From NCBI RefSeq assembly GCF_003841485.1, contig NZ_REFY01000008.1, positions 1-64,000 on the forward strand: a stretch of DNA of 64,000 bases. The letters are read 5' to 3'. The position numbers were made by a program, and so were the translations under genes. Positions 2,879 to 59,845 of the stretch are shown piece by piece; position 1 is the stretch's first letter, and every line of letters starts with the position of its first letter. Below the pieces are notes generated by a model that was not told the DNA's origin, did no database searches, and was given only the letters and a program-made list of their open reading frames with translations. The stretch is from Natrarchaeobius halalkaliphilus. GTDB lineage: Archaea > Halobacteriota > Halobacteria > Halobacteriales > Natrialbaceae.

Positions 2879-4264
2879 TCAGTAGAGGTAGTCGTTTTCT
2901 GTGAGCTGGACGTAGCGTCCGTCCCGATAGGTGAATTTGCGTCGCTTGTAGGCGGCGACGATCCTCGTCGCGTCGAGACCGGCGGAGTATCGCTTCGAGA
3001 TCAGAACGTTGTCTCCGCCGCCGCGTTGCATGTCAGTGACGACGTCGAACGCCCAGTCCCAGTCGTCGGGTTCGTAGTCCTTGACGATATCCGCGAATGC
3101 GACGTTTCGAAGGATTTCATCACCGATGGCGTTCTTCCAGCGGTCGTTGTAGTTCTCGAGCGAGTCCGTCGCCGCGAGTCGGCCGGCGATTTTCCCGGAG
3201 CGAACGGCGACGTGGTAGCCGCCTTCGTGGAACGCGGAGGTCGTTCCCATCGCGCCGCCGGCGACGGCGATGTTCGCGCCGACGGGGGATTCGATCGGTC
3301 GAGTCGAGGAGATCGGATAGGTCTCAGTTCCCTTTGATTTGCCGCGATCCTCGACGAGCGGAAAATCCGTTTCGACGTCGTACTCGTCGCCGTACTCGTG
3401 TTCGAGGAGCCGAGTGATGTACTCCGAACCCGATGGAAGCCCGTCGTCGGTGGGCTCGAGGAGCTTGTAGGAGCCGGGGTTGTCGACGTCTTCGAGGCGC
3501 ATTCCGATCGGCATCGTGAGTCCGACGCGGGCGACGGTGCCGTCGTTTGGGAACACCCAGGGATAGGCGGTTTCGCCGGGCATGTATCCCCACCAGAACG
3601 TGAGCCAGTCGTCATCGAAGAGTTCCTCGGGGAACTCCCGGTACTCCTGATAGGCGATGTGATTCGCCTCGGGTGGCGAGAGGTAGTCGGAGACGCTCCG
3701 TCCGGGTGCGGTAAACTGATCGAGCGCGTCGAGGGTGATTCGGCGCTGGGGTCCGTCGGCGAGGACGACGTACTGGGCCTCGAGTTGGCTTCCGTCCGAG
3801 AGGGAAAGCGTGTGGGTCGGCCCGTTCGCACTGGACGCACGAAGGTCGGTCTCGAGGTCGGAGACGCCGATACCGACGCGAAGATCGGCACCAGCATCGG
3901 CTGCGCGTTCGTGTAACCAGTCGTCCATTCGGGTTCGGTTGAACGTGTAACCGAACTTCGGATAGCGCGCGTCGATACCCGTCGTCGCCAGTTCGACGGA
4001 GCTTTCGGGTCCGATGAATTCGGTGCCTTCGAGCTCCTGGAGGATTACGTCGTCCGGAATCTCCTCGTAGTCGAAGTCCATGATGTCGATCCAGTAGTCG
4101 AGCATACCCGCAGCGTCGGTCGAATCCGGGCCGGGTCCGTCGCGGTCCTCGCGAGGGACACCCTGCTCGAAGAGGACCACCTCGGCGTCGTGGGCTGCGG
4201 CTCGCTCGGCAGCGGACGCTCCGGCGGGACCGCCACCGACGATCGCGACGTCAACGTGTTCCAT
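2879..4264 (-). CDS. FAD-dependent geranylgeranyl-reductase-like oxidoreductase
   Basis: A 461-residue flavoprotein of the digeranylgeranylglycerophospholipid-reductase-like family. The N-terminus VDVAIVGGGPAGASAAERAA is the FAD dinucleotide-binding loop (GxGxxG). A GYTFNRTRMDDWLHERA region (about 112-128) matches the family's R-x3-D-x-L-x4-A motif. GANIAVAGGAMGTTSAFHEG (about 345-365) is the second FAD-contacting loop, here GGAMG rather than the common GDAAG. Related proteins saturate isoprenoid double bonds in membrane lipids or menaquinone; which substrate applies is unknown. The start at 4264 (MEHVDVAIV) is chosen because it places the FAD loop at the terminus; the frame stays open upstream only as a shadow of the divergent gene. 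Confidence 0.8.
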   Translation of the reverse strand: MEHVDVAIVGGGPAGASAAERAAAHDAEVVLFEQGVPREDRDGPGPDSTDAAGMLDYWIDIMDFDYEEIPDDVILQELEGTEFIGPESSVELATTGIDARYPKFGYTFNRTRMDDWLHERAADAGADLRVGIGVSDLETDLRASSANGPTHTLSLSDGSQLEAQYVVLADGPQRRITLDALDQFTAPGRSVSDYLSPPEANHIAYQEYREFPEELFDDDWLTFWWGYMPGETAYPWVFPNDGTVARVGLTMPIGMRLEDVDNPGSYKLLEPTDDGLPSGSEYITRLLEHEYGDEYDVETDFPLVEDRGKSKGTETYPISSTRPIESPVGANIAVAGGAMGTTSAFHEGGYHVAVRSGKIAGRLAATDSLENYNDRWKNAIGDEILRNVAFADIVKDYEPDDWDWAFDVVTDMQRGGGDNVLISKRYSAGLDATRIVAAYKRRKFTYRDGRYVQLTENDYLY

Positions 4265-59552: not shown

Positions 59553-59562
59553 AGATATAAGT
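59553..59562 (+). promoter_or_regulatory. TATA box upstream of the RNA candidate
   Basis: GATATAAGTT sits about 30 bases upstream of 59583, the predicted 5' end of the structured RNA. The preceding TAAACAATA could be the BRE-like upstream part. It lies 76 bases after the ACR3-like gene stop, so it does not serve that gene. Confidence 0.5.
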
Positions 59563-59582
59563 TACTACGGAGAGGTAATTAC

Positions 59583-59653
59583 GATGGAAGCCGCCCTCCA
59601 TCGGGGGCTGCAAAATGCCCCGGGTGCTCTAACACCCGAGACGCGGCTTCCAA
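59583..59653 (+). ncRNA. Candidate structured small RNA or leader element
   Basis: TGGAAGCCGC (59585-59594) pairs fully with GCGGCTTCCA (59643-59652), closing two strong internal hairpins: GGGGC (59604-59608) with GCCCC (59617-59621) around TGCAAAAT, and CGGGTG (59621-59626) with CACCCG (59633-59638) around CTCTAA. A possible smaller hairpin forms at CCC...GGG (59594-59607). The element starts at the correct distance from a TATA box and has no open frame of its own. It is not a tRNA: the hairpin next to the closing stem lacks a TTC loop and the junction is too long. No Rfam family comes to mind. Confidence 0.55.
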
Positions 59654-59671
59654 CCTCATCCGGTTGTCGCC

Positions 59672-59845
59672 ATGATTGCATACCTACTCGCGGGATATAA
59701 ACGTCTCGCACGATCGACGGATCGGCCGCCACGAACAGCGACGTCTGCGGGCGCGAGAGGACGTGCCGCGCGACGACGGGCGCGTCGGGAACGCCGACGG
59801 CTGCGCGACAGACACCACGAACGGGCTCGTCAGGCGGGACTCTGA
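59672..59845 (+). CDS. Possible 57-residue arginine-rich protein
   Basis: An ATG 19 bases after the RNA candidate opens a frame starting MIAYLLAGYKRLARSTDRPP, continuing with a stretch dominated by Arg (about 20 of 57 residues). It is the most basic frame in a region where proteins are acidic. It may be translated from the structured leader or be chance. Frames on both strands overlap it, which lowers confidence. Confidence 0.25.
   Translation: MIAYLLAGYKRLARSTDRPPRTATSAGARGRAARRRARRERRRLRDRHHERARQAGL

Follow-up and report, generated by a model that had tools for sequence, protein, structure and literature searches.

The locus examined here lies in a window of 64,000 nucleotides of Natrarchaeobius halalkaliphilus DNA and consists, on the plus strand, of a putative promoter, a structured RNA element and a short open reading frame (ORF). 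The TATA box region (GATATAAGTT) occupies 59554–59563. Its TATAA starts at 59556, 30 nt upstream of the GGAAGC in the closing stem, which is the distance that the original prediction had called for. A TATA-like box is found 30–32 nt upstream of this motif in 103 of 110 copies of the element; promoter spacing is therefore conserved, and the transcript would be expected to start at about the closing stem, in the window near 59583.

The predicted fold, a perfect 10-bp closing stem with two internal hairpins, was borne out: the segment 59583–59653 has a minimum free energy of −39.9 kcal/mol (z −5.4), and none of 200 shuffled sequences was equally stable. The closing stem, P1, pairs 59585–59594 with 59643–59652. 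Within it the fold places P1b (59596–59598/59638–59640), the P2 hairpin (GGGGGC...GCCCC, 59604–59621, pairs 59604–59608/59617–59621) and the P3 hairpin (GGGTG-CTCTAA-CACCC, 59622–59637, pairs 59622–59626/59633–59637). A further hairpin, P4 (CAACC/GGTTG, 59651–59666), supported by the fold and by comparison of copies, lies between P1 and the AUG. The leader RNA proper is the 5′ untranslated region up to the last base before the AUG (59583–59671), and is recognized by covariance model R1 with an E-value of 1.7e-27, which, like all our covariance-model E-values, is rough because calibration was shortened. The Arg-rich ORF anticipated 19 nt beyond the stem is present at 59672–59845 (57 aa, MIAYLLAGYKRLAR...RQAGL), as judged from its translation and from related loci. 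Two features go beyond the prediction. The structure extends into the ORF, as hairpin P5 (CGGGA-TATAAACG-TCTCG, 59691–59708), and the P1 3′ arm has a second possible partner in the segment preceding the AUG. The P1 5′ arm in the window can also pair locally (GATGGA 59583–59588 with TCCATC 59597–59602), which would free the 3′ arm; many copies show a recognizable GGA/TCC hairpin.

Copies of the leader and their genes

A blastn search with this region of the window found matches in 16 of 41 genomes of relatives, several with at least 10, all belonging to the same family. Scanning named genomes with a sequence pattern yielded 120 loci, nearly all in Natrialbaceae (Natrialba, Natrinema, Halopiger, Halovivax, Halostagnicola, Natronorubrum, Natrarchaeobius and others). 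The common order in this family is TATA box, P1 (GGAAGCC/GGCTTCC), P2, P3 (GGGTG/CACCC), P4, followed by GAAGCC-AUG, where an ORF opens with MIAYILPGYKRPAR or a similar sequence; P4 is a small, variable hairpin, often with a GNRA-like loop. The genome studied here has 9–11 copies by covariance models, some of them decayed. Four loci on its other contigs (L266, L267, L268 and L269) are decayed leader cassettes, marked by stop codons and a lost ORF; L269 has kept P1 to P3, with P3 compensated (GAGTG/CACTC), but neither the start codon nor P5 survives there.

The first ORF has a median length of about 40 codons (134 non-redundant copies). In 103 of the 128 readable non-redundant copies, a small zinc-finger ORF (with motifs such as CPxCG...CGC or CYRCD...CPDC) starts between −17 and +2 nt from the first ORF's stop, the junction being ATGA in 64 of the 103. 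Such an overlap of stop and start is the arrangement expected for termination–reinitiation coupling. The window has no zinc-finger ORF downstream; in its place stands the 57-codon Arg-rich frame, which by sequence comparison is a lengthened form of the small upstream ORF seen in the family. Three loci of related genomes resemble it in length (56–61 aa) and C-terminus, and a dN/dS of about 0.5–0.8 among related loci points to weak constraint. Pfam, NCBIfam and PHROGs gave no name to the leader-linked zinc-finger or Arg-rich proteins. The coupled zinc-finger proteins of three Halostagnicola loci (L159, L181, L219) carry at their N-terminus a domain with a weak resemblance to HalOD1 (PF18545; E 0.018 in one). 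In two plasmid records, the downstream hypothetical protein is annotated and the first ORF left unannotated.

Weak matches beyond Natrialbaceae turned out to be copies of this RNA built from other stem sequences. With retrained models (R2, R3), 18 of 40 non-Natrialbaceae genomes gave matches; overall, covariance models detected the leader in 227 of 292 Halobacteria genomes and 70 of 77 genera (E up to 1e-3, on the same rough scale). A search of 120 genomes of the phylum returned 13 with matches, all within the order and none outside it. A false-positive check of model R3 on about 1.3 Mb of other sequence gave two extra matches above 30 bits; both are plausibly real, and false positives look rare. 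The non-Natrialbaceae copies head genes or operons for SWIM zinc-finger, PadR, integrase or unknown proteins, and the orientation and gene linkage of the leader are constant across the order. At two loci (L365, L371) the leader and small ORF are followed by a gene that we take to resemble a CRISPR Cas7/Csf2-type protein; the one tested had no Pfam match.

Mobile replicons carry the leader as well. Copies reside on a 10.8-kb Halomarina plasmid, on plasmids of Halalkalicoccus, Halorussus and Halobaculum, on IMG/VR contigs and in haloviruses BJ1 and Humcor1. One Halorussus caseinilyticus plasmid (NZ_CP119811) has 10 matches, among them near-identical pairs about 142 kb apart, which suggests a duplicated segment. 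In Humcor1 the annotation already starts the gene at the leader's AUG. In BJ1 (NC_008695, 3507–3652) the leader is flanked by a winged-helix gene and gp07. It places an AUG at 3598 in the reading frame of gp07, for which the annotation gives a valine codon at 3547 as the start; the true start thus probably lies further downstream than annotated. No leader match was found in phiCh1, SNJ1, HGPV-1, HHPV-1, HFTV1 or plasmid pHS1, and blastn of the element against phages gave no match. A scan of viral sequences with the pattern GGTGCTCTAACACC returned mostly chance matches and was abandoned for a narrower one, which gave a single full-length copy.

With up to 20 or more matches per genome, and decayed copies in the genome studied here, one might wonder whether the family is a dispersed repeat or MITE-like mobile element. 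This is highly improbable: the copies have diverged with compensating changes, are conserved deeply and across the order, and keep a single orientation relative to promoter and gene together with their gene linkage. Only slightly less remote is the idea, one of two put forward in the original prediction, of a stand-alone small RNA made from its own promoter. The conserved TATA box and compact fold would suit such an RNA; however, the start codon, the hairpin in the coding region and the downstream gene are conserved along with it across the order. The other option, a structured leader of the ORF that follows, is the one that stood, since the position of the AUG is conserved, a covarying hairpin marks the ORF start, and orientation and gene linkage are constant order-wide.

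Strand and covariation

The opposite strand of 59583–59653 folds just as well, as perfect stems do, so the strand of the RNA needed settling by comparison. Among 81 non-redundant copies, found by covariance model with the arm sequence not fixed, P1 cells contain 51 G-U against 7 A-C combinations, an excess that places the RNA on the plus strand. The same asymmetry ruled out a reverse-strand reading, to which a resemblance of the ORF start to a minus-strand promoter (CGTTTATATCCCG) had given rise.

In an alignment of 51 sequences, 93.3% of the cells in stems are paired versus 73.4% after shuffling, and 142 cells are changed on both sides, where shuffles give 32.5 and sliding the structure gives no more than 37. 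Because the alignment had been fitted to the structure, the paired fraction is inflated and the counts lean towards the structure. Two-sided changes occur in all nine pairs of P1, four of five in P3 and all five in P5 (18 of 19 in total). Homologous structures and compensating changes, by which the original prediction was to be judged, are thus both present across Halobacteria. RNAalifold, run on a sequence alignment, did not recover P4 and P5. From these comparisons we regard the RNA, its strand, stems P1, P3 and P5 and the linkage to a start codon as established.

P5 occurs as CGGGA-loop-TCCCG or CGAGA-loop-TCTCG, both sides changing together, and the first-ORF peptide switches between GYKRP and RHKRL with these variants, which argues that conservation of the peptide is partly conservation of the RNA. 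Codon 10 of the first ORF, inside the P5 loop, is AAA, GAA or AAG nearly throughout and encodes Lys or Glu. Codons 9 and 10 (59696–59701 in the window) form what, from the alignment, is a nucleotide-level motif, roughly YWWRAA at +25 to +30.

Pairing at the start codon and probable translational control

The segment just upstream of the AUG is complementary to the P1 3′ arm even where P1 sequences are unrelated, as in GGTCTT/AAGACC-AUG (L359), GTCGTGG/CCACGAC-AUG (L377), GGGTTTC/GAAACCC-AUG (L375) and GGCTTCTC/GAGAAGCC-AUG (L386). The mean stem score of this pairing over 27 non-Natrialbaceae loci is 6.57; permuting the pre-AUG segments between loci gives 4.71 ± 0.22 (none of 2000 permutations reaching the observed value) and shuffling their letters 4.88 ± 0.19 (none of 1000). 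The competing pairing, which shares the P1 3′ arm, can on this comparison be considered conserved. In the window, the alternative anti-P1 hairpin (59645–59671, ending directly at the AUG) would combine GGC 59645–59647 with GCC 59669–59671 and the P4 pairs CAACC/GGTTG, leaving an internal loop.

Folded singly, some loci choose P1 and others the start-codon hairpin. Outside Natrialbaceae the two states lie within 6 kcal/mol of each other in 17 of 27 loci (median difference 3.5 kcal/mol); in Natrialbaceae the median advantage of the P1 state is 6.7 kcal/mol; for the window copy, constrained folding gives −41.7 kcal/mol for the P1 state and −36.5 for the alternative, about 5 in favor of P1, all with standard parameters that do not describe molar KCl. 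Most copies can refold into a hairpin against the start codon, and the leader therefore probably controls translation of the gene that begins there. The comparative evidence points to two exclusive conserved folds, one of them occluding the initiation region, as in a riboswitch.

We are inclined to think, with some reserve, that the leader acts in cis as a translational switch working through strand exchange, the closing stem and the start-codon hairpin being mutually exclusive. One could envision a transcript that starts close to the 5′ end of P1. In one of its states, the P1 arms would pair around P2 and P3, and the pre-AUG segment would be free except for P4. In the other, the P1 3′ arm would pair with the pre-AUG segment, often a near copy of the P1 5′ arm, forming a hairpin that stops at the start codon, so that initiation should be blocked. 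We infer that translation is regulated through these two states, with the start-codon hairpin as the OFF state. Any factor favoring either state would set how frequently the first ORF is translated and, in most Natrialbaceae copies, the overlapping zinc-finger gene would then be read by termination–reinitiation. Masking of the AUG is a feasible step, since a synthetic AUG-masking riboswitch works in Haloferax (PMC8241225).

Several observations count against such a switch. P1 is the more stable state in Natrialbaceae, and the pre-AUG match in the window is imperfect, with its internal loop; some subgroups (e.g. L358, L372, L381) exchange via an outer stem instead of P1; the P3 loop and the gene content vary among copies; and no aptamer or ligand came to light, the gene content offering no candidate for the latter. 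The stability of P1 in most Natrialbaceae copies, together with its position at the predicted transcript end, would also suit a leader that does not switch, its 5′-terminal P1/P2/P3 structure protecting the mRNA or presenting the start codon and the pre-AUG complementarity being a by-product. We think this unlikely: a third segment tracks the P1 arm across unrelated loci, as the permutations show, and a stabilizer has no need of a P1-arm copy beside the AUG.

The trigger of such a switch could be a small ligand, the kinetics of folding, or a protein, perhaps the zinc-finger product itself; our leading guess is that this product regulates its own synthesis. Spelled out, this is a version of the switch reading with the trigger named: the encoded small zinc-finger or SWIM protein would bind its leader and lock the start-codon hairpin, in the manner of ribosomal protein leaders. 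Small zinc ribbons commonly bind nucleic acids, and many copies, including that of the BJ1 operon, precede genes for zinc-finger or SWIM products. However, operons outside Natrialbaceae also encode PadR, integrase and unknown proteins, and the copy in the window has no zinc-finger gene, and we consider this specific form rather doubtful.

Should the switch be real, RNA control of translation in the absence of a Shine-Dalgarno sequence could be tested directly in a natural system, one that most sampled genera of Halobacteria possess, and there would be a handle on gene regulation by haloviruses and plasmids. The leader family also helps to annotate missing small genes and to correct wrong start codons.

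Relation to known RNAs

As predicted, the shape is not that of a tRNA (neither ARAGORN nor RF00005 finds a cloverleaf) and the element has no Rfam family: it stays below every gathering threshold in Rfam 15, and scanning nine homologous loci by E-value turned up nothing at the element. Among open-licence papers, we found none describing it. The element covaries and, across many genomes, keeps a constant place and orientation ahead of a start codon, as a cis-regulatory leader RNA should; the downstream genes do not include one for a ribosomal protein, as a ribosomal protein leader would require. The S15-Halobacteria leader (RF03143; PMC7247131) is likewise a structured cis leader in Halobacteria but has another structure and precedes rpsO; in the nine homologous loci its model found no match except at an unrelated place in one (L286).

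Translational riboswitches resemble the element in being 5′ leaders that adopt one or the other of two exclusive folds and shut the initiation site in one of them; the element differs in that it closes the start-codon region rather than a Shine-Dalgarno sequence, has another structure and has no known ligand or aptamer. The sole natural archaeal riboswitch cited as experimentally tested in PMC8241225 is the fluoride riboswitch of Thermococcus kodakarensis. The synthetic theophylline riboswitches of Haloferax volcanii control translation through a hairpin masking the AUG region (PMC8241225), as proposed here; these, however, are engineered and their ligand is known, whereas the natural leader has none known. 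Archaeal overlapping gene pairs with termination–reinitiation coupling (Huber et al. 2019, as cited in PMC12542753) share the ATGA overlap seen between the first and the zinc-finger ORF, the difference being that the first ORF of the leader family starts at a conserved structured leader.

It is tempting to speculate, although we would stop a little short of expecting it, that the family represents a novel, naturally occurring class of translational RNA switch in archaea with a specific trigger, one that closes the start codon, does without a Shine-Dalgarno sequence, includes a hairpin within the coding region, heads operons of haloarchaeal viruses and plasmids, and has expanded in Natrialbaceae chromosomes to set the levels of many small zinc-finger proteins. 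In kind, the leader belongs with the known cis-regulatory leaders, among which it appears to form a new family whose unusual features are closure of the start codon instead of a Shine-Dalgarno sequence, an element that is partly coding, and an occurrence common to chromosomes, plasmids and viruses.
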